From NCBI RefSeq assembly GCF_007559435.1, contig NZ_VMBP01000002.1, positions 496,001-560,000 of the forward strand: 64,000 bases of DNA, in the 5' to 3' direction. Made by a program: the position numbers and the translations under genes. Shown one piece after another: positions 46,363-58,229 of the stretch (the stretch's first letter is position 1; every line of letters begins with the position of its first letter). A model generated the notes under the pieces. It did no database searches, was not told the DNA's origin, and worked only from the letters and a program-made list of their open reading frames with translations. Origin of the DNA: Ancylobacter moscoviensis. Lineage in GTDB: Bacteria > Pseudomonadota > Alphaproteobacteria > Rhizobiales > Xanthobacteraceae.

Positions 46363-47268
46363 CTACATCCGCCAGCGCTTATAGAACCAGGTCCACTGGT
46401 CGGGGTGCTCGCGCACCCAGCCCTCCACCACGGAGGTGATCATCTGCATCGAGCCGTCGATGTCGATCTTGCCCTTCGCGTCGCGGGGAAGGTTCAGCGC
46501 CGGCGTGCATTGGATGCGGAAGCGCCCGCCCGGAAGGCGGATCACCCGGACGCCGTGCACCGGGCACTCGTAGAGCCGCGCGAGGCGGGCGATGGTCGGA
46601 TTCGACGAGCAGGGATGACCGAAGAACTGCACGGTCGGCCCGCCGCGCCGCGCCTGATCGACGAGGATGCCGAGATGCTTGCCCTGATCGAGCACGGCGG
46701 CCAGCTCGAACACCGCCACATGCGAGGCGGCGACGAGGTTGCCCATCACGCGGCTGCGCGCCTCGAACAGCAGGTCGGCGAAGAAGGAATTGTCCGGCGC
46801 GCGGAACAGTACCGCGCTGTCGAGCCCCTGCGCGGCGGCGGCGATGGCCGGCAGCTCCCAGTTGCCCAGATGCGCGGTGAAGACCAGCGCCGGCTTGCCG
46901 TCGACCCGCATGGCGACGAAGTTGGAAACGCCCGTCGTCTCGATCCGGCTCTTCGACGGCTCCCACATATTGTATTGCCAGATGCGGTCGAGATGGACGA
47001 ACTCGCCCGCCATGCGGCCGAGATTGTCCCACATGCCGACGGCGATCGCCTCGCGCTCGGCCTCGGTCTTCTCGGGGAAGGCGAGGCGCAGATTCTTCAG
47101 CGCGATGCGGTGGATCGAGGTGTAGCGGCCGAGTTTGCGTGCCCAGAAGCCGCCCTGCCACGAGGCGAAGCGTGGGGGCTGCAGGCGCATGAGGCGCATG
47201 AGCGCCCAGACGCTGGCCGACAACGCGGCGTCGCGCACCCGCAGCGTCCAGGGCAGGGGGCGGCTCAT
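46363..47268 (-). CDS. lpxXL: Lipid A VLCFA acyltransferase LpxXL (LpxL/HtrB family)
   Basis: A 301-residue inner-membrane acyltransferase. TAHLGNWELPAIA carries the H-(x)4-(D/E) catalytic motif (His about 133), and ILVDQARRGGPTVQFFGHP is the second family block. A hydrophobic N-terminal segment anchors it. As the last gene of the acpXL cluster it should transfer the very-long-chain 27-hydroxy fatty acid from AcpXL to lipid A, as shown for the rhizobial homologue. The upstream adh2XL stop lies 40 bases before its ATG. Confidence 0.9.
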   Translation of the reverse strand: MSRPLPWTLRVRDAALSASVWALMRLMRLQPPRFASWQGGFWARKLGRYTSIHRIALKNLRLAFPEKTEAEREAIAVGMWDNLGRMAGEFVHLDRIWQYNMWEPSKSRIETTGVSNFVAMRVDGKPALVFTAHLGNWELPAIAAAAQGLDSAVLFRAPDNSFFADLLFEARSRVMGNLVAASHVAVFELAAVLDQGKHLGILVDQARRGGPTVQFFGHPCSSNPTIARLARLYECPVHGVRVIRLPGGRFRIQCTPALNLPRDAKGKIDIDGSMQMITSVVEGWVREHPDQWTWFYKRWRM

Positions 47269-47308: not shown

Positions 47309-48331
47309 TCAGAAGGTGATGACGACCTTGCCGAACACCCGGCGGGTCTCCAGGCGCTCCAGGCCGGCGCCGAAATCCGCCAGCGGGAATTCGGAATCGA
47401 TCACCGGCAGCACGCCGCGCTCCATGCGCTTCAGACCGTCGGCGATGGCGCGGATCGGCGCGCCGAAGGAGCCGATGATGCGGTACTGGCGCTGGAAGAG
47501 CTGCATCAGGTTCATGTTGACCGAGACGCCCGAGGTCGAGCCGCAGGTGACGAGGCGCCCGCCGGGCTTCATCGACAGCAGCGAGCCGTTCCACGTCTCG
47601 GCGCCGACATGCTCGAACACGACGTCGACGCCCTTCTTCTTGGTGATCTTGCGGACCTCGTGCTCGAAGCGGTCGGTGCGGTAGTTGATCGCGTGGTCGG
47701 CGCCGAGGGCCAGCGCCTTGGCGCACTTCTCGTCGTCGCCGGCCGTGGTGATGACGGTGCAGCCGATCTCCTTGGCCATGCGGATGGCCACGGTGCCGAT
47801 GCCGGAGCCGGCGGCGTGCACCAGCACGGTCTCGCCGGGTTCGAGCTTGGCATTGTCGAACAGCATGTGCTCGACGGTGGAGAAGGTGACCGGCGCGCAG
47901 GCGGCGTCGACCCAGGAGATGCCCTCCGGGATCGGCACGCAGAGCCGCTCCTTGATGTTGAGCTTGTCGCGGGCGAAGCCGTCGACGTGGAAGCCCATGA
48001 CGCCGGCGACCTCCTCGCAGAGATTGTCGCGGCCCTGCCGGCACATCTTGCACTGGCCGCAGGTGAGGGCGCCGTACATGGCGACCTTCGAGCCGGGCTT
48101 GAAGCGGGTGACGCCCTCGCCGGTGGCGATGACCTCGCCGACCGCCTCGGCGCCGACGACGAGCGGCATCTTGCGCTTGGCGAAGGCCATGCCGCGCCAG
48201 CCCCAGACGTCGATATGGTTCAGCGCCAGCGCCTTGATGGAGACCTGCACCTCACCCGGCTCCGGCGCACCCGGCTCCGGCAGATCGGTAAGGATGAGTT
48301 CGCGGTCGGACACCAGCTGAAGCGCGCGCAT
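47309..48331 (-). CDS. adh2XL: MDR dehydrogenase of the VLCFA cluster (Adh2XL)
   Basis: A 340-residue medium-chain dehydrogenase. The structural zinc lobe is complete (TCGQCKMCRQGRDNLC, about 95-110), whereas the usual catalytic-zinc cysteine is missing (NHIDVW), and the Rossmann motif is HAAGSGIGTVAIRMA (about 171-185). In the rhizobial acpXL cluster this gene is called adh2XL. Loss of the catalytic zinc ligand fits an enoyl-ACP reductase-like or quinone-oxidoreductase activity, so it may supply the final reduction of the elongation cycle; this is inference. ATG 48331 is chosen over an in-frame TTG at 48343. Confidence 0.88.
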   Translation of the reverse strand: MRALQLVSDRELILTDLPEPGAPEPGEVQVSIKALALNHIDVWGWRGMAFAKRKMPLVVGAEAVGEVIATGEGVTRFKPGSKVAMYGALTCGQCKMCRQGRDNLCEEVAGVMGFHVDGFARDKLNIKERLCVPIPEGISWVDAACAPVTFSTVEHMLFDNAKLEPGETVLVHAAGSGIGTVAIRMAKEIGCTVITTAGDDEKCAKALALGADHAINYRTDRFEHEVRKITKKKGVDVVFEHVGAETWNGSLLSMKPGGRLVTCGSTSGVSVNMNLMQLFQRQYRIIGSFGAPIRAIADGLKRMERGVLPVIDSEFPLADFGAGLERLETRRVFGKVVITF

Positions 48332-48439
48332 GAACAACTCCAAAACGACGGCGAGGGCATCATCGGTCCGCCCCGTTCCCGATACGGGAAGAGGCGCGGG
48401 TGGATGCCGCCCGCGGAAGGATGAGGGTGGATAACGAAA

Positions 48440-49192
48440 TCAGCGCTGGATGGCTAGTGCGGCGGTGAGCCCGCCATCCACCGGCAGGGTCGTGCCCGTG
48501 ATGTAGGCGGCCCCCGGCGACAGGAGGAAGGACACCAGCGCCGCCACATCCTCCGGTCCGGCGAAGCGGCCGGCGGGGATCTGCTTCTCGACATTGGCGC
48601 GATAGGCGGCATAGGGCGCCAGCATGGCGGTATCGACGAAGCCGGGCGCCACGACGTTCACGGTGACGCCGCGCCGGGCGCTCTCGATCGCCAGCGTGCG
48701 GCAGTAGCCGGCCAGCGCGGCCTTGGAGGCGGCATAGATGGCGTTGCCGGCATTGGCGACATCCGCCGCGATCGACCCGATGGCGACGATGCGTCCGGCG
48801 CGGGCCCGCGTCATCGGCCGGACCAGCGCACCGACCAGCTTCACGAAGGACCAGTAATTGACCTGCATGAGCTCCTCGGCCTTGCCCTGATCGACGAGGG
48901 CGGCGAGCGTGTCGTAGCTCATGCCGGCATTGTGGATGAAGCCGTAATAGGCCGGCTCCTCCGCGAGCGTGGCGGCGAAGGCTTCGACGGCGGCCTTGTC
49001 GGCGAGGTCCAGCAGGCGTGCCTCGACCGCCGCGTCGGGCTTGTCCGCCTTGATGGAGGCGATGAGTGCCTCGGCCTCGGCTTCCGCCGTGCGGACGGTG
49101 AACAGGACGTCGAAACCGGCAAGCGCAAGGGCGCGTACGATGGCGGCACCGACACCACGGCCGCCGCCGGTCACGAGGACGCGCTGGGTCAT
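48440..49192 (-). CDS. SDR, probable 3-oxoacyl-ACP reductase of the VLCFA cluster
   Basis: A 250-residue classical short-chain reductase resembling FabG. Cofactor loop VTGGGRGVGAAIVRALALAG (about 7-26), catalytic Ser in IGSIAADVANAG and the YxxxK pair in YAASKAAL (Tyr about 155, Lys about 159), then VNVVAPGFVDTAML. It lies inside the VLCFA cluster between fabF1XL and adh2XL. I recall the basic rhizobial cluster as six genes without an SDR, so this is an added or lineage-specific member that would supply the ketoreductase step. Confidence 0.87.
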   Translation of the reverse strand: MTQRVLVTGGGRGVGAAIVRALALAGFDVLFTVRTAEAEAEALIASIKADKPDAAVEARLLDLADKAAVEAFAATLAEEPAYYGFIHNAGMSYDTLAALVDQGKAEELMQVNYWSFVKLVGALVRPMTRARAGRIVAIGSIAADVANAGNAIYAASKAALAGYCRTLAIESARRGVTVNVVAPGFVDTAMLAPYAAYRANVEKQIPAGRFAGPEDVAALVSFLLSPGAAYITGTTLPVDGGLTAALAIQR

Positions 49193-49306: not shown

Positions 49307-50587
49307 TCACGCAGGCTCGCCGGTCAGGATCAGGCAGACATTCTGCCCGCCGAAGCCGAAGGAGTTCGACATCACGCGCTTCACCTGCGCATCGCGGGCC
49401 ACGTTGGGCACCACGTCGAGCGGAATGGCGGGGTCCGGCAGCTCGTAATTGATGGTCGGCGGGATGCGGCCCTTGGCGATGGTCAGCAGCGAGATCACCG
49501 CCTCGATGGCACCGGCGGCGGTCAGCGTGTGGCCGATCATCGACTTGTTGGAGGAGATCGGGATTCCGGCCAGCCGCTCGCCGAACACGGCGCTCATGCC
49601 GGTGAACTCCATACGGTCGTTCTCCGGCGTCGAGGTACCGTGGGCGTTGATGTAATCGATGTCGTCCGGGCTCACGCCGGCATCGGCCAGCGCCTGCCGC
49701 ATGCAGCCGATCACCGGCTTGGCGTCCGGCGAGGAGCGGGTGCGGTGGAAGCTGTCGGCCATTTCGCCGACACCCTCGACCACGCCGAGGATCTTCGCCC
49801 CGCGCGCCGTGGCGTGCTCGAGGCTTTCCAGCACCAGCGCGCCGGCGCCTTCGGCGATGATGAAGCCGTCGCGGTTCTTGGCGAAGGGACGCGAGGCCGC
49901 CTCGGGAACCTCGTTGTTGGTGGAGAGCGCCGAGAGCAGCGAGAAGCGGATCAGCGCCTCCGCCGTCACCGAGCCGTCTGTGGCGATGGAGAGGGCCGCG
50001 TCGCAGTCGCCGCGGCGGATCGCCTCGACGCCGAGCTGGATCGAGGTGTTGCCCGAGGCGCAGGCGGTGGACAGCGAGATCGGCTGGCCACGCGTGCCGA
50101 ATCGGTCGGCCAGATGGTCAGCGATGGAGCCGTAGAGGAACCGCTCGTGCCAGGCATCGTGGCCATTGGCCTCGGCGGCACGCAGCAGGTCGTCATAGGA
50201 CACCGGACCGTTCGGCGCGGCTTCCTGCGCGAGGATGCGGCGCTGCGGCCATTCCAGCTCGATCGGCGGGACGGCGCAGAAAAGCGGGCCGGGGAAGTTG
50301 CCCTTGGAGCCGATGCCGGATTCGGCGACCGCCTCCTCCGCCGCCAGCTGCGCCAGTTCCTCGGAGAGGTCCGGCGCGGTGCGCCCGCTCTCCGGCAGGA
50401 AGTCGACCGTGCCGGCGATGGTGGTGCGCAGCGTGTCGATCGGGAAGCGGGTGATGCGGTGGATGCCGGAGGTGCCGGCAGTCAGCTTCGCCCAGTTGTC
50501 CGCCTTGCCCTGGCCGAGCGAGGTCACCATGCCCATGCCGGTGACGACGACGATCGGCCGGCCGGCCTTGTCGGTATAGGAAGCCAT
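49307..50587 (-). CDS. fabF1XL: Beta-ketoacyl-ACP synthase FabF1XL
   Basis: A 426-residue KAS II-type ketosynthase of the VLCFA cluster. The catalytic triad is complete: Cys176 in SLSTACASGN, His316 in INAHGTSTPEND and His353 in NKSMIGHTLT (with Lys348). It should condense malonyl units onto acyl chains carried by AcpXL. GAGGAGC precedes ATG 50587, so the longer open frame to 50668 is not used. It is preceded 38 bases upstream by the degenerate paralogue FabF2XL. Confidence 0.93.
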   Translation of the reverse strand: MASYTDKAGRPIVVVTGMGMVTSLGQGKADNWAKLTAGTSGIHRITRFPIDTLRTTIAGTVDFLPESGRTAPDLSEELAQLAAEEAVAESGIGSKGNFPGPLFCAVPPIELEWPQRRILAQEAAPNGPVSYDDLLRAAEANGHDAWHERFLYGSIADHLADRFGTRGQPISLSTACASGNTSIQLGVEAIRRGDCDAALSIATDGSVTAEALIRFSLLSALSTNNEVPEAASRPFAKNRDGFIIAEGAGALVLESLEHATARGAKILGVVEGVGEMADSFHRTRSSPDAKPVIGCMRQALADAGVSPDDIDYINAHGTSTPENDRMEFTGMSAVFGERLAGIPISSNKSMIGHTLTAAGAIEAVISLLTIAKGRIPPTINYELPDPAIPLDVVPNVARDAQVKRVMSNSFGFGGQNVCLILTGEPA

Positions 50588-50625: not shown

Positions 50626-51810
50626 TCAGTCGGCGCGCTCGACGAGCGCGACGCCTTCTCCACGCCAATGCCCCACTGCGGTGACGATGGCACGGGATAT
50701 GGTGCCGTCGAAAGGCTTTTCCAGCGGCTCGCCGGCCAGCGGGGCGAAGAGCCGTCCTTCGGAGACGGAGAGCGCCGCAAGCGCCAGCGCCACCGGCATC
50801 TGGGCTTCCAGTCCGTGGCCGACGCGGTCGGTCACCGAGCGCACCGGCAGGCCGGAACGGGCGAGCACGGCGGCTTCCGCCTTCGTCGGCTCGGGCGCGC
50901 CGGTGGCGGCGGAGAAGATGGCGGTGTCATCGGTGATTCCGGCTTCCGCGGTCTTCAGCATCTCTTCCAGCGTCGCCTCGACGGCGCCGGCCTCGCTGCG
51001 GCGGGCGCGTTCCGACCACACGCCGGAAAGCTTGGCGATGGGCCTGGCGCCGCGCGCCGTGGCGTGTTCCGGCGATTCCAGCACCAGGAAGGCGCCGGCC
51101 GAGCCGGTGGCGATGCCCTTGGGGTCCGCCAGCACCGGCGCCCAGGGGGCGTGCATGGCGAGGCGCTTGAGCGCGAAGAGCAGCAGCATGTCGCGCCGCT
51201 CGGCGTTATAGGCGCCGCCCACCAGCGCGATCTCGCTGGTGCCGGCCGCGATGCGCGACCAGCCGATGCGCACCGCGTCGGTGCCGGAGCTTTCCTCGCC
51301 CATGAAGGTACGCGAGGAACCGGTGACGCCGTGGACGATGGAGATATTGCCGGCCAGCAGGTTGGAGAGCTGGGCCAGGAACAGCGTCGGGCGCAGGTTC
51401 GACTGGAGCTGCTCGTTCAGGAAGACGTCGGGATTCGCCTGCTTCTCGATCTCGGTGAGAATGGCGCCGTCGACCGATTGGTCGCGTTCGCCGCCGCCCG
51501 CCGCGACCACCATGTCGGTGGCGCCGAGGATTTCCTTGTTGCCCTTCAGGCCCGCCGAATCCAGCGCGAGGCCGGCCGCATAGGTGCCGATGCGCTGCCA
51601 GGGCTCCATCTGCCGCTGGTCGCCCCGCTTCGGGATCTGCTGGTCGAAATCGACCTTGGCCAGCGGATGCACGACGTAGGGAACGAAGCTGTTCTCGTCG
51701 ACCACGGGGCCCGTACCGCCGGCAAGGGCCTGCCAATGGGCTTCCAGACCTTCACCGAGCGAGGAAACGAGCCCGATGCCGGTGATCCAGACGTCGCGAC
51801 GATTAGACAT
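50626..51810 (-). CDS. fabF2XL: Ketosynthase-like FabF2XL lacking the catalytic cysteine
   Basis: A 394-residue thiolase-fold protein of the KAS family, but the active-site block that should read TACASG is GEESSG here; aligned with FabF1XL, Glu173 replaces the nucleophilic Cys. The first catalytic His (INAHGT) is also lost (FSAATG, about 299-304), while VGHGLEA keeps the second (His332). There is no cysteine anywhere in the protein. It is therefore unlikely to condense by itself and may be a chain-length-factor-like partner of FabF1XL, as in type II polyketide synthases. Its start overlaps the fabZXL stop by eight bases, implying coupling. Confidence 0.9.
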   Translation of the reverse strand: MSNRRDVWITGIGLVSSLGEGLEAHWQALAGGTGPVVDENSFVPYVVHPLAKVDFDQQIPKRGDQRQMEPWQRIGTYAAGLALDSAGLKGNKEILGATDMVVAAGGGERDQSVDGAILTEIEKQANPDVFLNEQLQSNLRPTLFLAQLSNLLAGNISIVHGVTGSSRTFMGEESSGTDAVRIGWSRIAAGTSEIALVGGAYNAERRDMLLLFALKRLAMHAPWAPVLADPKGIATGSAGAFLVLESPEHATARGARPIAKLSGVWSERARRSEAGAVEATLEEMLKTAEAGITDDTAIFSAATGAPEPTKAEAAVLARSGLPVRSVTDRVGHGLEAQMPVALALAALSVSEGRLFAPLAGEPLEKPFDGTISRAIVTAVGHWRGEGVALVERAD

Positions 51811-52312
51811 GCGTAAGCTTTCCTGGCCGCTCGGTCCCGTCGGGCGTGGGCCCGTCTCCCATCGGCATGCAGATGCGCTCGGCAGTCGAGAGCAGGTAGC
51901 CGCGGAGTTCCGGGGCAGGGAACGGCATGGTCTTGAGGGTGATGTCGGCGTTGCAGACGAGCTTGCCCTCGACGCGCCCTTCGGCCTTCAGCCGGGCAAA
52001 GCCCGAGCCGTCGTGCTCCATGCGTGCGAACACCTCGATGACCTGCCCCGGTGTCACGAAGGTGCGCAGCTTGCCCTTGTCGACCGAGGCGAGGAACGCC
52101 ATGCGGTCATAGTTGTGGAGGCGCAGAAGCAGCATGCCGCAGCTCTGCGCCATGATCTCGAACAGCAGCACGCCGGGCAGCAGCGGGTGCCCCGGGAAGT
52201 GGCCTTCGAAGATCGGGCTTTCGGTCGGGACGGTGTTGGCTGTCCTCAAGGTGCGAGCGTCGAGGTCGAGCTCGATCACCTTGTCGATCATCTGGAAATA
52301 TTCGAGCCGCAT
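51803..52312 (-). CDS. fabZXL: 3-hydroxyacyl-ACP dehydratase FabZXL
   Basis: A 169-residue hotdog-fold dehydratase. GHFPGHPLLPGVLLFEIMAQ holds the catalytic His38 and Glu52, at the spacing of FabZ. It would dehydrate 3-hydroxyacyl-AcpXL in VLCFA elongation. ATG 52312 is preferred to an adjacent upstream GTG. Its stop codon lies within the fabF2XL start region. Confidence 0.93.
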   Translation of the reverse strand: MRLEYFQMIDKVIELDLDARTLRTANTVPTESPIFEGHFPGHPLLPGVLLFEIMAQSCGMLLLRLHNYDRMAFLASVDKGKLRTFVTPGQVIEVFARMEHDGSGFARLKAEGRVEGKLVCNADITLKTMPFPAPELRGYLLSTAERICMPMGDGPTPDGTERPGKLTHV

Positions 52313-52347
52313 CACCCGTCCCGCTTAAACCCTGCCGAACCGCCCGA

Positions 52348-52629
52348 TCAGGCGGTCTTCGCCGCGATCAGCTCATCGATGCGGGCGCAGAGATTCTTGA
52401 GCACGAAATACTGCTCGGTCGTCGCCTTGCCCTCGTTGACTTCCTGCGTCCACTGCTCAAGCGGCAGCTTGATGCCGAAAGCCTTGTCGATGGCGAAGGC
52501 GATGTCGAGGAAGTCCAGGCTGTCGATGCCGAGATCGTCGATCGCGTGGCTCTCGGGCGTGATGTTCTCGCGCGGGATGTCGCACGTCTCGGCAATGATG
52601 TTGGCAACGGTCTCGAACGTGGTCGACAT
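52348..52629 (-). CDS. acpXL: Acyl carrier protein AcpXL
   Basis: A 93-residue acyl carrier protein specific for very-long-chain fatty acids of lipid A. The phosphopantetheine site is Ser37 in [16 protein letters not shown], and the C-terminal part ([17 protein letters not shown]) is typical of AcpXL rather than housekeeping AcpP. AGAGGC precedes ATG 52629. It is the first gene of the minus-strand cluster acpXL-fabZXL-fabF2XL-fabF1XL-SDR-adh2XL-lpxXL, whose small gaps suggest an operon. Confidence 0.95.
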
Positions 52630-52886
52630 GAAATGCCTCTAGTCTCGGCGGCCGCGTCCGGCCACGGTTGCATTGGTTCTCCCGCCGCTCCCGCGACGAC
52701 AGGCCCCCAAACGGATGACGGCCCGTATACCTAAGGGCGAACGGCTATTCAATGGCGGCGGCGCGGCAATCCTCGGCTGTGTGACATCCATGCCGATCGT
52801 CCCGCTTGAGCGTTGTCATGGCACGGAGGCCGATTCAGGCTTATCGTTCCGCCACTGGTGGAATAGCGGGTTTCGGGGTGGGTGCC

Positions 52887-55800
52887 ATGGTCGCGTTGTC
52901 TTCGGCCTTTTCGTGGCTCGGGCGCGGAGTGGCCGCGCCGCTATTGGCAATGGCGCTGGTGGGGCCGGGCCTCGCCCAGAACACGCCGCCCGCGGTTCCC
53001 AAGCCGCCGAAGCCGCCCGCCGCCGCGACCGCGCCGCAGCCGGCAAAGCCGGCGGCGCAGGCCACCCCAGTGCAGGACGCATTGCCCAGAACCTATTCGC
53101 GGCAGGATCTCATCGAGGCCGCCCGGCGGTTGCAGGCGCTGCTCCAGCGCGAGCGCGGACCGCTGCCCAAGCCGGCGGCGCAGATGCGCAAGGACGCCGA
53201 TGCGGCGCTGGGGAGCGGGGACGCGCGCAGCGCCGCCGAGATCTATGGACGGCTGGCGCAGGCATCGCCGGCCGATTCCGCCGCCTGGATGCGCTTCTCG
53301 CGCGCGCTCACCCGCATCAAGCCGAACGATGACGAGAGCGCCGATACCTTCCTCGAGCGTGCACAGGCCGCCGCCTTCCTCGCCTATCGCGCGGCGACGA
53401 CGCGGGTGCAGCAGGCCGAAGCGCTGTTTGCCATCGGCCACCTCTATAATCAGCGCTCGCTCTGGCGCGCCGCGCTCGACACGCTCAGCGCCGGCCTCAC
53501 CTATGCCAACGTGCCCGACCAGCGCGCCTTCTACGAAAAGCTGCGTGAGGAGCGCGGCTTCCGCATCCTCGACTACAGCGTCGATTCGGATGCCTCCAGC
53601 CCGCGCATCTGCGTTCAGTTCTCCGAGCCGCTGGCGACCGGCGGCAAGGATTATTCCGCCTTCGTGACCCTGAGCGGGCCGAACGGGCCGATCGACAAGC
53701 CGGCGGTGACGGCGGAGGAGAGCCAGCTCTGCGTCGAGGGGCTGAAGCACGGCGACAGCTATGACGTGAAGCTGCGGCAGGGCCTGCCGTCCTCCATCGC
53801 GGCCGAGCCGCTGCGCGAGAGCGCCGACCTCACCATCTATGTACGCGACCGCAAGCCGGGCGTGCGCTTCACCGGCCGCAACTATGTGCTGCCGCGCACC
53901 GGCCCGCGGGGCATTCCGGTGGTGAGCGTCAACACCTCGCGCGTTGGGGTGGAGCTTTATCGCATCGGCGACCGCAGCCTGATTCCCACCGCCCTGGACG
54001 GCAGCTTCCGCCGCGATCTCGGCGGCTACGATCTCCAGCAGCTCAAGGACAGCCGGGCCGAGCTGGTCTTCTCCGGCGAGTTGGAGACGGCGTCGCCGCT
54101 GAACGAGGACGTCACCACCTCCTTCCCCGTGGACGAGGCGGTCGGCACGCTGGCGCCCGGCGTCTATGTGCTGGCGGCGCGCCCGGGCGGCGAGGCGGCC
54201 AACCCGAACGACGAGTGGGGCACCCGCTCGACGCAGTGGTTCGTGGTCTCCGACCTCGGCCTCACCGCCCTGTCGGGCAGCAACGGGCTGACCGTGCTGG
54301 TGCGCGCGCTCGGCACGGCGCAGCCGCTGGAGGGCGTGGAGCTCCGCCTGCTCGCCAAGTCCAACGAGTTGCTGGCGACGGCCCGTACGGATGCTTCGGG
54401 CGCTGCGGCCTTCGACGCCGGGCTCGTGCGCGGCAAGGACGGCTTCGCGCCGGCCGTCGTCGTGGCGCAGGCGAAGGAGGGCGACTATGCCTTCCTGTCG
54501 CTGGAAGATCAGGCCTTCGACCTCACCGATCGCGGGGTCGGCGGACGCGCCGCGCCCGAGAAGATGGATGCCTTCGTCACCACCGAGCGCGGTGTCTACC
54601 GTTCCGGCGAGGAGGTGCACGTCACCGCCCTGCTGCGCGATCCGCAGGTGAAGGCGGCGCCCGGCGTGCCGCTGACCCTCGTCTTCAAGCGTCCCGACGG
54701 CGTGGAGGAGCGCCGCGTGCTGGCGGAGGACGGGGGCGCGGGCGGGCGCAGCGTGTCCTATGCCCTGATGGGCGACGCCATGACCGGCACCTGGCGCGTC
54801 GAGGCTTATGTCGACCCGCGCGGCGCGCCGGTCGGCTCCACCACCTTCCTGCTGGAAGACTACGTGCCGGAGCGTCTGGCGCTGGACCTTTCCACCACCG
54901 CCACCGACATCGCCGCTGCCGCACCGGTGAGCGTGGCGGCGGATGGGCGCTGGCTGTTCGGTCCGCCCGCCGCCGGCCTCGAAATCGAGGGCGAGATCGA
55001 GGTGCGTGTCGCCGATGCCCGCCCGAATCTGGCCGGCTGGCGCTTCGGCCGCCCGGATGACGGCTTTACCCCCGTGCGGCAGCCGCTCGCCGACGCGCCG
55101 TCCACCAATGCGCAGGGCAAGGCGAGCCTTTCCGTGGCGCTGCCGGCGCTGCCGTCGACGGCACGGCCTCTGGAGGCGGAAATCTTCGTCTCCCTGAACG
55201 AGGGCGGCGGGCGCGCCGTGCGCCGCTCGCTGGTGCTGCCGGTGCGCGCGGCCGGCAACGGCATCGGCGTGAAGCCGCTCTTCGACGGCGCGGGTCCGGG
55301 GGAGGGCTCCAATGCCGGCTTCGAGGTGCAGGCGTTCGATGCCGCCGGCAAGCCCGTCGCGCTCAGGGGCGCGCAATGGGCGCTCTACCGTATCGAGACG
55401 CGCTACCAGTGGTACCGGCTCGACGGCAACTGGGATTTCGAGCCGGTCGAATCGATCGCCAAGGTGGCGGACGGCACGTTGGAACTCGGCGAGGGCGCTC
55501 CGGCACGGCTGGAGGTGCCGGTCAACTGGGGGCGTTACCGGCTGGAGGTGAGCGACGGCAAGCTCGCCACCGCCGTGCCCTTCGAGGCCGGCTGGGGCGG
55601 CGGCGCGACCGCCGACGCGCCGGATCGGCTGGAGGTCGGCCTCGACAAGGCGCAATACGCGGACGGCGAAGCGCTGAAGGTAAACCTCACCAGCCGCCAT
55701 GCCGGCTCCGCCACCGTGCTCATTGTCGGCGACGGCGTGCTGGCGTCGAAGACGCTCGACGTGCCGGCCGGCGACAGCTCGGTGGAGTTCGACGTGAAAT

Positions 55801-58229
55801 CCGGCTGGGCGCCGGGTGCCTACGCGCTCGCCTTCCTGCACCGGCCTCTGGACGTGGCCGGCGGCCGCAATCCGGGGCGCGCCATCGGCCTTGCCTGGTT
55901 CGGCGTCGACCGGGCCCAGCGCGTGCTCGACGTGAAGCTGGAAGCGCCGGCGCTGGTACGGCCGGAAACCACGGTCTCCGTGCCGGTCCAGGTGTCCGGC
56001 GGCGGGCAGGGTGAAGCCTATGTGACGCTCGCCCTCGTCGATGTCGGGATTCTCAACCTCACCGGCTTCAAGACGCCGGACCCGGACGGCTTCTATCTCG
56101 GCCAGCGCGCGCTCGGCACGCAGGTGCGCGATTTCTACGGCCAGCTCATCGACGGCATGCTGGGCAGCCGTGGCCGCCTGCGGTCCGGTGGCGATGCCAT
56201 GGAGGGCGGCCTGCAGGCCGAACCGCCCACCCAGCCGCCGCTCGCCCTGTTCTCCGGCATCGTGAAGCTCGACGGCGCGGGACGGGGAAGCATCGACTTC
56301 ACCATACCGCCCTTCGACGGTACGGGCCGGCTGATGGCGGTGGCCTGGTCCGGTGCGGCGGTGGGGCATGCGCAGGCCGATGTCACCATTCGCGATCCGG
56401 TGGTGATCACCGCCACCCTGCCGCGCTTCCTCGCGTCCGGCGACCGTTCGACGCTCAACCTCGCCATCACCAATGTGGACGGCGAGGCAGGCGACTATGC
56501 GCTTGATCTGGTGACGGAAGGTCCAGTCTCCATCGCCTCGGCGCCGAAGACCGTGCCGCTCGCCAAGGACGGGCGGCAGGCCTTCGGCGTGCAGCTCGAC
56601 GGCAAGGGCATCGGCGAGGCCAAGGTTTCCGTCCGGATCTCCGGTCCGGGAGGCTTCAGCATCGTACGCGACTACCGGCTGAATGTGCGGCCGGCCTATC
56701 CGGCGATCTCCCGCCGCAGCGTGCAGACGCTGGAGCCCGGCGCCAGCCTGTCGCTCAGCCGCGATCTCGTGGCCGATCTCGTGCCGGGTCGGGGCGGCGT
56801 GACCGTCTATGCCGGGCCGGATCCGGCGCTCGACGTGCCGGCGCTGTTCGGCGCGCTCGACCGCTATCCCTTCGCCTGCTCCGAGCAACTCACCAGCCGG
56901 GCCATGCCGCTGCTCTACCTCAGCGACTTCGGCACGCCCTCGCGCTTCCGGCTGACGCAGGAACCGGCCGAGACGGTGAAGAACGCCATCGCGCGGCTCG
57001 TCGCGCGGCAGGGTTCGGACGGCTCCTTCGGCCTGTGGGAGGCGGGCGGCAACGATGTCTGGCTCGACGCCTATGTGACGGACTTCCTCACCCGCGCCCG
57101 CGAGCGCGGTTACGAGGTGCCGGAGCAGCCCTTCTCCATGGCGCTCGACTGGCTGCGCAACACGCTTTCCTATGCGACCGACGGCGCTACCGACGACGGC
57201 ACCGCCTACGCGATCTATGTGCTGGCGCGCAATGGCCGGGCGCCGCTCGGCGACCTGCGCTATGTCGCCGACGCCAAGCTCGACGAGGTGAAGAGCCCGA
57301 TGGCGCGCGGCCAGCTTGCCGCCGCGCTCGCCATGCTGGGCGACAAGGGGCGGGCCGAGCGGGTGTTCGGTGCCGCGCTGGAACTGCTGCCCGACGCGCC
57401 GGAAACGGTCGCGACCGGGCGGCCGGACTTCGGCTCCATCCTGCGCGATGCGGCGGGCGTGGCGACGCTCGCCTCGGAAGCCGGGTTCACCGGCACCGCG
57501 CGCACCGCCCGGACGCGGGTCGCGGCCGCCTTCGTCGATGCCGGTCCGACCTCGACGCAGGAGGATGCATGGCTACTGCTCGCCGCCCGTGCGGCGCGCG
57601 AGGGGCGGGGGATCGCGGTCGATGTCGATGGCGTGGCGCATTCGGGCATCTATGAGCGCGCGCTCACGCCGGATGAGCTGGCAACGCCCGTCGTGCTGAC
57701 CAATCGCGGCACGGCGCCGCTCGACGTGGCGGTGTCCATCGACGGGCCGCCCAGCACGCCGGAGCCGGCCTCGGCCGAGGGCTTCGCGCTCACGCGCAGC
57801 TACTACACGCTCGACGGGACGCCGGCCGACCCGGCCAAGGTGGCGCAGAATCAGCGCCTCGTCGTGGTGCTGGAGGCGCAGGAGGACGATGCCGGGCCGA
57901 GCCATGTGCTGCTGGTCGATCATCTTCCGGCCGGCTTCGAGATCGACAACCCGAATCTCGCCGTCGGCGCGGATACGGGCGCGCTGGCCTGGCTCGGCGA
58001 CACGACGCAGCCAGCGCACGCCGAGTTCCGCGACGCCTTCTTCGCCGCCGCCTTCGACCGCACGCAGGGCTCGGAGGAGCCGGAACTGCTACGCGTCGCC
58101 TATATCGTGCGCGCGGTCTCGCCCGGCAGCTACGCGCACCCTCCGGCGATGGTCGAGGACATGTACCGGCCGGGCCGCTTCGCCCGCACCGAGGCGGGGC
58201 GCACCGAAGTGACGGGTCCGGCGAGGTGA
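52887..58229 (+). CDS. Bacterial alpha-2-macroglobulin family protein
   Basis: A ~1780-residue periplasmic protease trap. The signal or anchor segment is MVALSSAFSWLGRGVAAPLL, followed by a Pro/Ala linker, an N-terminal helical part (about 75-220), several MG domains, and the thioester domain with the intact CxEQ site as CSEQ (Cys about 1331 within PFACSEQLTSRA), then the alpha/alpha barrel. The bait region is probably the stretch before EPPTQPPLALFSGIV. It is paired with pbpC 10 bases downstream, the classic yfhM-pbpC arrangement, in which A2M is thought to guard the periplasm while PbpC repairs peptidoglycan. Starts at 52818 (ATG) or 52806 (TTG) are possible. Confidence 0.93.
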   Translation: MVALSSAFSWLGRGVAAPLLAMALVGPGLAQNTPPAVPKPPKPPAAATAPQPAKPAAQATPVQDALPRTYSRQDLIEAARRLQALLQRERGPLPKPAAQMRKDADAALGSGDARSAAEIYGRLAQASPADSAAWMRFSRALTRIKPNDDESADTFLERAQAAAFLAYRAATTRVQQAEALFAIGHLYNQRSLWRAALDTLSAGLTYANVPDQRAFYEKLREERGFRILDYSVDSDASSPRICVQFSEPLATGGKDYSAFVTLSGPNGPIDKPAVTAEESQLCVEGLKHGDSYDVKLRQGLPSSIAAEPLRESADLTIYVRDRKPGVRFTGRNYVLPRTGPRGIPVVSVNTSRVGVELYRIGDRSLIPTALDGSFRRDLGGYDLQQLKDSRAELVFSGELETASPLNEDVTTSFPVDEAVGTLAPGVYVLAARPGGEAANPNDEWGTRSTQWFVVSDLGLTALSGSNGLTVLVRALGTAQPLEGVELRLLAKSNELLATARTDASGAAAFDAGLVRGKDGFAPAVVVAQAKEGDYAFLSLEDQAFDLTDRGVGGRAAPEKMDAFVTTERGVYRSGEEVHVTALLRDPQVKAAPGVPLTLVFKRPDGVEERRVLAEDGGAGGRSVSYALMGDAMTGTWRVEAYVDPRGAPVGSTTFLLEDYVPERLALDLSTTATDIAAAAPVSVAADGRWLFGPPAAGLEIEGEIEVRVADARPNLAGWRFGRPDDGFTPVRQPLADAPSTNAQGKASLSVALPALPSTARPLEAEIFVSLNEGGGRAVRRSLVLPVRAAGNGIGVKPLFDGAGPGEGSNAGFEVQAFDAAGKPVALRGAQWALYRIETRYQWYRLDGNWDFEPVESIAKVADGTLELGEGAPARLEVPVNWGRYRLEVSDGKLATAVPFEAGWGGGATADAPDRLEVGLDKAQYADGEALKVNLTSRHAGSATVLIVGDGVLASKTLDVPAGDSSVEFDVKSGWAPGAYALAFLHRPLDVAGGRNPGRAIGLAWFGVDRAQRVLDVKLEAPALVRPETTVSVPVQVSGGGQGEAYVTLALVDVGILNLTGFKTPDPDGFYLGQRALGTQVRDFYGQLIDGMLGSRGRLRSGGDAMEGGLQAEPPTQPPLALFSGIVKLDGAGRGSIDFTIPPFDGTGRLMAVAWSGAAVGHAQADVTIRDPVVITATLPRFLASGDRSTLNLAITNVDGEAGDYALDLVTEGPVSIASAPKTVPLAKDGRQAFGVQLDGKGIGEAKVSVRISGPGGFSIVRDYRLNVRPAYPAISRRSVQTLEPGASLSLSRDLVADLVPGRGGVTVYAGPDPALDVPALFGALDRYPFACSEQLTSRAMPLLYLSDFGTPSRFRLTQEPAETVKNAIARLVARQGSDGSFGLWEAGGNDVWLDAYVTDFLTRARERGYEVPEQPFSMALDWLRNTLSYATDGATDDGTAYAIYVLARNGRAPLGDLRYVADAKLDEVKSPMARGQLAAALAMLGDKGRAERVFGAALELLPDAPETVATGRPDFGSILRDAAGVATLASEAGFTGTARTARTRVAAAFVDAGPTSTQEDAWLLLAARAAREGRGIAVDVDGVAHSGIYERALTPDELATPVVLTNRGTAPLDVAVSIDGPPSTPEPASAEGFALTRSYYTLDGTPADPAKVAQNQRLVVVLEAQEDDAGPSHVLLVDHLPAGFEIDNPNLAVGADTGALAWLGDTTQPAHAEFRDAFFAAAFDRTQGSEEPELLRVAYIVRAVSPGSYAHPPAMVEDMYRPGRFARTEAGRTEVTGPAR

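Follow-up and report, generated by a model that had tools for sequence, protein, structure and literature searches.

FabF2XL, a ketosynthase-like protein without a catalytic cysteine, is a probable non-catalytic partner of FabF1XL in lipid A very-long-chain fatty acid synthesis

Within a 64,000-nucleotide stretch of the Ancylobacter moscoviensis genome (hereafter the window), the gene fabF2XL encodes a ketosynthase (KS)-like protein in which a glutamate stands where the catalytic cysteine should be, and which is almost certainly dead as a ketosynthase. We propose, with a probability of roughly 0.7, that FabF2XL acts as the obligate non-catalytic partner of the intact ketosynthase encoded beside it, FabF1XL, in a heterodimer suggested by family-wide sequence patterns and reminiscent of the pairing of a chain-length factor (CLF) with its ketosynthase. 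For the synthesis of the C26-C30 chains of lipid A in rhizobia and related bacteria, databases list two beta-ketoacyl-acyl carrier protein (ACP) synthases, whereas the sequences allow only one. If the proposed heterodimer exists, the KS-plus-CLF principle of polyketide and aryl polyene synthesis would also operate in an envelope pathway, that of the very-long-chain fatty acids (VLCFA), which is essential or important to these bacteria. Chain length and starter choice would then be testable through one subunit, with an invariant glutamate pair as a concrete handle.

Catalytic residues lost and retained

We aligned FabF2XL to Escherichia coli FabF and FabB and to aryl polyene and Streptomyces enzymes. 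The minus-strand translation of the gene is an open frame of 394 residues that contains no cysteine. The motif GEESSG (residues 171-176) replaces the TACASG of FabF1XL and, in the alignment with E. coli FabF, brings Glu173 into the catalytic cysteine column; FSAATG (residues 299-304) replaces INAHGT and brings Ala301 into the His303 column. A preliminary description of this DNA, which gave no strand, had reported both replacements, and both hold as described. It had counted a single lost histidine, and here the damage proved more extensive: Ala301 does stand at the His303 position, but Thr327 also occupies the Lys335 column, and the FabF gating loop GFGG reads GHWRG. The catalytic set of KAS II, Cys-His-His-Lys, thus appears in the window protein as Glu, Ala, His and Thr, so that the second histidine (H332) is the only one of the four FabF/KAS II catalytic residues that is kept. 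Residues H303, H340 and F400 of FabF, its GFGG loop and the gating residues I108 and F202 are described in PMC7138838.

At an E-value of 0.01, all 49 FabF2XL representatives (mutual identity below 70%, sequences shorter than 370 residues dropped) match the Pfam family for the N-terminal ketosynthase domain and none matches that for the C-terminal domain; both domains are found in FabF1XL. The preliminary description had called the neighboring FabF1XL intact, and it does carry TACASG, INAHGT and NKSMIGH.

FabF2XL belongs to NCBIfam family NF005084 (PRK06519), scoring 586.3 bits against a curated cut-off of 320, and the acpXL-fabZXL-fabF2XL-fabF1XL context of that family is present in the window. 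The family is annotated in NCBIfam as beta-ketoacyl-ACP synthase and has been published as fabF2XL, from the known acpXL-lpxXL cluster (PMC11901934 and PMC5613085); the product is termed 3-oxoacyl-ACP synthase II in PMC11901934 and fatty acid elongation protein in PMC5613085. The words cysteine and active site are absent from the main text of the former, and cysteine appears solely in the reference list of the latter. In the open-access literature (subscription journals not covered), we found no description of FabF2XL as cysteine-less or as a chain-length factor. Judged by its sequence, the protein is misannotated: the family name credits it with a catalytic function that is at odds with its residues.

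Conservation across the family

To place the window protein in its family, we assembled an alignment of 213 rows (212 distinct sequences, four of them shorter than 370 residues) drawn from a scan of GTDB genomes (80 of at least 566 relatives), from whole-genome searches with fetched regions, and from one Sinorhizobium meliloti record. Residues G171, E172 and E173 are each present in 213 of 213 rows, and the E172-E173 pair also in all 49 representatives; the preliminary description had proposed just such a check of the glutamate across many relatives, and the residue came through it without exception. R109, D110, R140, P141, T142 and N155 are likewise found in every row, R167 in 212 and E108 in 210. 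The position that follows E173, by contrast, varies freely (Ala in 63 rows, Ser in 47, Met in 24, Leu in 22, Val in 21, and others), which indicates that the glutamate pair is under strong constraint.

This invariance excludes chance or local decay of FabF2XL, and decay specific to this genome was rejected on the same ground. A degenerate gene or a sequencing artefact could account for the lost Cys, His and Lys; it is refuted by the recurrence of the same replacement in 212 distinct sequences and by a family score far above the curated cut-off, and we give it virtually no weight. A nucleophile supplied from elsewhere in the protein, which would have undone the earlier proposal, was rejected as well: across the columns of the window protein, cysteine peaks at 41 of the 213 rows, which leaves no conserved substitute. 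Complete absence of cysteine, in turn, is true of the window protein but is no family trait, being found in 66 of the 212 distinct relatives.

In FabF1XL, by comparison, Cys178, His318, Lys350 and His355 are each present in 208 of 209 rows, the remaining row being unread or gapped (sequences shorter than 380 residues were dropped, and 230 pairs with FabF2XL reduced to 209 distinct pairs). By its residues, FabF1XL has retained what FabF2XL lost.

The preliminary description had also raised the idea that FabF2XL decarboxylates malonyl-AcpXL. Such an enzyme would make the starter or feed the first condensation in the manner of the KSQ domains of modular polyketide synthases. A polar residue in place of cysteine would suit such a role, as would a second histidine kept in 180 of 213 rows and the requirement of the gene for any VLCFA in Agrobacterium fabrum (PMC11901934). 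KSQ decarboxylases, though, carry glutamine in place of cysteine and keep both histidines. FabF2XL differs on each count: it has glutamate in all 213 rows, no histidine in the His303 column among the 212 rows with a letter there, and a second histidine that is not invariant; the Lys335 column likewise holds no lysine among the 210 rows that have a residue there, and the GFGG loop is altered. Because the His303 and Lys335 equivalents are missing, decarboxylation is unlikely, and we regard this role as distinctly improbable.

A further possibility is that the glutamates form a new catalytic dyad and that the protein performs some other chemistry on acyl-AcpXL, in which Glu173, lodged in the former oxyanion pocket, would act as base or nucleophile. 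In favor of this, E172-E173 never vary, although the adjoining residue 174 does so freely. R109, D110, R140, P141 and T142 are, however, equally invariant, and these lie in the presumed dimer interface; the His and Lys helpers are gone, and no missing step of the elongation cycle seems clearly to need such a reaction. We consider a Glu-based enzyme very improbable.

Co-occurrence with FabF1XL and AcpXL

An obligate partner should be found where FabF1XL is found, and its distribution comes close to this prediction; patterns of this kind are no proof of contact. We surveyed the order, class and phylum of the window's genome (Rhizobiales, Alphaproteobacteria and Pseudomonadota). Within the order, FabF2XL, FabF1XL and AcpXL exceed their cut-offs in an identical set of 51 of 199 genomes, and in a larger draw FabF2XL is present in 124 of 397. 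Of 387 class genomes, 20 have FabF2XL above cut-off and one more (G353) has a split gene below it; FabF1XL was detected at E <= 1e-140 in 20, and exceeds its own cut-off in 12 of them. The two sets differ in one genome only, G191, where a contig end truncates FabF2XL. Among 219 genomes of the phylum (the number outside the window's class not being listed), FabF2XL was found in 24, all of them from that class or nearer.

FabF1XL follows FabF2XL in 230 of 235 FabF2XL hits (many loci were fetched twice, so that 235 hits do not correspond to 235 genomes), and three of the five remaining hits lie at a contig end (L023, and L104 with L174, which are one place). The two genes overlap in 26 of 209 pairs, with a median gap of about 14 bases as judged from extrapolated starts. 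Where fabF2XL is duplicated, its partner follows: in the five loci that hold it twice (L143, L211-L214) a FabF1XL comes after each copy, and the same is true of two unlinked copies in a single genome (G742; L195, L196). We rejected the notion that fabF2XL is a mere hitch-hiker of the operon because the pairs are co-duplicated in five loci and both genes are kept where they are unlinked (L010, L145).

Several of these loci are noteworthy in their own right. All four of L211-L214 have the arrangement F2-F1-adh-F2-F1. A second, diverged fabF2XL-fabF1XL pair adjoins acpXL in L143; duplicated pairs possibly serve two VLCFA lengths or two products. In four loci (L120, L050, L125, L144) no fabZXL was recognised beside acpXL-fabF2XL-fabF1XL, and the Mesorhizobium loti cluster is likewise reported to lack fabZXL (PMC7663294).

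Conservation in the presumed dimer interface

The interface of a KS dimer, together with the bottom of its acyl tunnel, is built from the strand that leads up to the cysteine and from the cap segment ahead of that strand. We compared conservation in this segment (residues 100-173 of FabF2XL, 102-178 of FabF1XL) at thresholds of 95% and 90%, using representatives below 70% identity: 72 rows for FabF2XL, 42 for FabF1XL and, as a control, 25 representatives of 42 FabF proteins (those of E. coli, of the genome that contains the window and of 40 further members of the class). At 95%, 27 of 60 conserved positions of FabF2XL fall in the segment where 11.3 are expected (p 2.5e-7), whereas FabF1XL is depleted there (12 of 121, expected 21.8, p 0.004) and the FabF control is neutral (18 of 97, expected 15.0). 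The 90% threshold gives segment counts of 33 for FabF2XL (expected 16.3), 15 for FabF1XL (27.2) and 22 for FabF (19.5).

AlphaFold2 monomer models have mean pLDDT values of 93.8 for FabF2XL and 92.1 for FabF1XL, and that of FabF2XL is a complete KS fold. Its weakest blocks are residues 141-150 (pLDDT 64) and 101-110 (78), followed by 131-140 (81); the first two are also among the most conserved (0.96 and 0.92). Low confidence combined with high conservation is as expected for parts that a partner would order.

Within the same segment, FabF2XL carries GGGERD in place of the GSGIGG loop of FabF, and a Streptomyces CLF reads GGFEF there, in the region of the gatekeepers of the actinorhodin CLF. 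At roughly the corresponding place, as judged by eye from secondary-structure strings, FabF1XL has a conserved P..E..W motif (P108, E110, W113).

Mutant phenotypes

Published phenotypes indicate that FabF2XL is needed for more than the adjustment of length. In A. fabrum C58, insertion into fabF2XL removes all VLCFA from lipid A, and a fabF2XL plasmid restores 28:0(27-OH) to 4.8%, compared with 11.0% in the wild type (PMC11901934). Polarity of the insertion is possible, because that source also has fabF2XL co-transcribed with fabF1XL, adhXL and lpxXL. The total loss of VLCFA implies that FabF2XL is required for the activity or stability of the pair. In Bradyrhizobium ORS278, mutants of acpXL, fabZXL, fabF1XL and fabF2XL were not obtained, while lpxXL mutants were (PMC5613085).

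Comparison with known systems and ancestry

A profile search of solved structures with FabF2XL returns FabF, distant KS and CLF chains, the best at only 100.7 bits, from which we conclude that no structure of FabF2XL itself has been solved. FabF/KAS II proteins are the nearest solved sequences (profile E=8e-28) and head the Foldseek search with the FabF2XL model, which yields generic KS matches. Chains B and C of PDB entry 9s5h, also matched by the profile (E=3.9e-22 and 1e-13), are differing KS-like chains, and the entry is possibly another KS pair.

A close analogy is with KS-beta/CLF proteins such as that of actinorhodin (1tqy chain B), which, like FabF2XL, have a KS fold without the catalytic cysteine or first histidine and are encoded next to an intact KS. 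The profile match to 1tqy_B (E=3e-15) is no better than those to many active ketosynthases. Glutamine at the cysteine position is the hallmark of type II polyketide synthase CLFs, and it is present in a Streptomyces CLF (L187). FabF2XL has Glu-Glu at and before this column. In contrast to the aromatic type II systems, the pathway it serves is a reducing one that makes fatty acids for the envelope, and its gene seldom overlaps that of FabF1XL.

Two further systems invite comparison. In ishigamide synthesis, a reducing type II system, Iga11-Iga12 (6kxd) pairs a KS with a CLF to build a polyene chain, and in aryl polyene synthesis, a Gram-negative type II system, ApeO-ApeC forms a KS-CLF heterodimer (both PMC8358021). 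Among the 50 fold matches listed for FabF2XL, no chain from a KS-CLF entry ranks above 6kxd_A (rank 14, TM 0.78), but FabF chains do; the ishigamide product is short, and 6kxd_A is the chain named ketosynthase, so that the match is to a KS and not to a CLF. ApeC-type CLFs are half-size proteins with one thiolase fold and an N-terminal Pfam family of their own (PF13723). FabF2XL is full length and modelled as a complete KS fold, and PF00109 is found in 49 of 49 representatives, with a second Ketoacyl-synt family in none at E 0.01. Membership in the ApeC family was rejected on size, fold and these PF00109 matches.

In a tree that took in one Streptomyces CLF and left out the short ApeC-type CLF of E. 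coli, FabF2XL forms a single clade (100/100) whose very long stem measures 2.41 changes per column. Topology tests reject neither a grouping with the Streptomyces CLF (p 0.44) nor one with FabF1XL (p 0.23), and kinship with a Cys-less Streptomyces KS is likewise compatible with the tree. By the tests run, FabF2XL would work like a CLF or an obligate dead partner from outside the classical CLF and ApeC families.

In the same tree, a KS-like protein from a plasmid of Streptomyces NBC_00335 (L189:2992-4281) groups weakly with FabF2XL (76/25). It reads GTADAG at the active-site column, without a cysteine there, and its gene has those of another KS and of two dehydratases nearby.

Proposed mechanism and its standing

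We suggest that the FabF2XL pseudo-ketosynthase pairs with active FabF1XL as a CLF does with its ketosynthase, and that the two together would be the condensing enzyme by which acyl-AcpXL is extended until the (omega-1)-hydroxy acid of lipid A, C26-C30 in length, is complete. All chemistry, both priming and condensation, would fall to FabF1XL. FabF2XL would contribute the other half of the dimer interface and a cap that closes the acyl tunnel of FabF1XL, and it probably adds a docking face for AcpXL; its charged set R109, D110, R140, R167, E172 and E173 may fill and lock the dead pocket and the interface. The heterodimer, the sharing of a tunnel, the setting of length and the role of the glutamate pair are what we infer from the patterns above. 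That FabF2XL sets chain length is a tentative proposal, to which we give somewhat less than even odds. A speculative variant, unlikely in our estimation, is a new, acidic type of CLF that belongs to a type II fatty acid synthase dedicated to lipid A. Its set GGGERD...RPT...SRTxMGEE would sit where the shared tunnel ends and recognise the growing chain by its polar (omega-1) terminus, fixing length by end recognition and not by steric blocking; this would imply that the omega-1 oxygen is present from the starter unit onward, for example in a hydroxybutyryl starter.

A number of observations weigh against the heterodimer and its role in length. The interface segment was placed by general KS dimer anatomy without coordinates, and the enrichment of conserved positions there in FabF2XL is partly due to lost conservation in its dead catalytic half, an effect that does not explain the depletion in FabF1XL. 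Direct-coupling analysis of the 209 pairs (effective number 118, two permuted-pair runs, three jackknives) gives a top inter-protein z of 8.1, against 8.1 and 7.3 for permuted pairs; two of the top 20 couplings lie inside both presumed segments (0.6 expected), and the ranks are unstable across the jackknives, which speaks neither for nor against contact. The genes are also occasionally apart or unequal in number. In Xanthobacter tagetidis, FabF1XL is kept with adhXL elsewhere in the genome; G426, which has two FabF2XL genes, carries its extra copy (L145) with no FabF1XL within the 6.5 kb examined downstream, its second FabF1XL standing alone on another contig (L298); and two genomes (G438, G497) show a second, partial FabF2XL match with one FabF1XL only (E <= 1e-150). 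Finally, the A. fabrum mutant phenotype reveals no effect on length: the complemented strain made 28:0(27-OH), and 30:0(29-OH) was not detected in it (PMC11901934).

As an observation on gene order, the X. tagetidis cluster is split into acp-fabZ-fabF2 (L010) and fabF1-adh (L255).

Some of these points would fit a protein that acts alone or as a homodimer outside the condensing enzyme, binding acyl-AcpXL or handing it over, for example to LpxXL. Its monomer model shows the entire KS fold, coupling with FabF1XL is no higher than in permuted pairs, and the two genes lie apart in two genomes (L010, L145). Against a lone FabF2XL stand the duplication of both genes as pairs in five loci and the poor conservation of FabF1XL exactly where FabF2XL is rich; moreover, lpxXL mutants of Bradyrhizobium were obtained and fabF2XL mutants were not (PMC5613085). 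We judge such a role unlikely, if worth keeping in mind, and favor the heterodimer. The CLF-like partner proposed in the preliminary description accordingly survives in part: KS residues are lost and FabF2XL appears to evolve as an obligate partner of FabF1XL, but the mutant loses its VLCFA and does not make shorter chains.

The locus and its neighbors

The features of the window discussed here are collected in Table 1. The last 8 bases of fabZXL, at its 3' end, are shared with the start of fabF2XL, and 38 bases separate the fabF2XL stop from the fabF1XL ATG.

Table 1. Positions in the window of the fabF2XL cluster and of diagnostic FabF2XL motifs.
Feature	Position	Strand	Basis
fabF2XL, 394-residue ketosynthase-like protein without catalytic Cys	50626..51810	-	open reading frame; NCBIfam NF005084/PRK06519
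E172-E173 codons; E173 in the catalytic Cys column	51292..51297	-	alignment to E. coli FabF; invariant 213/213
GGGERD (105-110) codons, aligned to the FabF loop with gating Ile108	51481..51498	-	R109 and D110 invariant
R140-P141-T142 codons, presumed cap/interface segment	51385..51393	-	invariant in 213/213 rows
FSAATG (299-304) codons; N-A-H303-G-T in active enzymes	50899..50916	-	no His in 212 rows with a letter
fabF1XL, intact partner ketosynthase	49307..50587	-	NF005076/PRK06501, 772.6 bits vs 629
fabZXL, dehydratase	51803..52315	-	FabZ family match under curated cut-off
acpXL, acyl carrier protein	52348..52629	-	NF005079/PRK06508, 182 bits vs 83
Short-chain dehydrogenase/reductase (SDR) of FabG type, candidate dedicated ketoreductase	48440..49192	-	best families FabG-type, under cut-offs
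adhXL, medium-chain dehydrogenase/reductase (MDR), candidate enoyl reductase	47309..48343	-	MDR/quinone-reductase-type families, under cut-offs; cluster position as published
lpxXL, VLCFA acyltransferase to lipid A	46363..47268	-	NF005120, 390 bits vs 273; named by cluster position

The SDR sits between fabF1XL and adhXL. The six-gene cluster described for A. fabrum (PMC11901934) is without it. The order acp-fabZ-fabF2-fabF1-sdr-adh-lpx recurs in 25 hits among related loci, the window included. AdhXL is a possible enoyl reductase, and if it acts as one, the cluster with its SDR would encode a whole elongation cycle.

Divergent from acpXL on the plus strand (52806-58229) lies an open frame of 1807 residues whose product resembles a bacterial alpha-2-macroglobulin.
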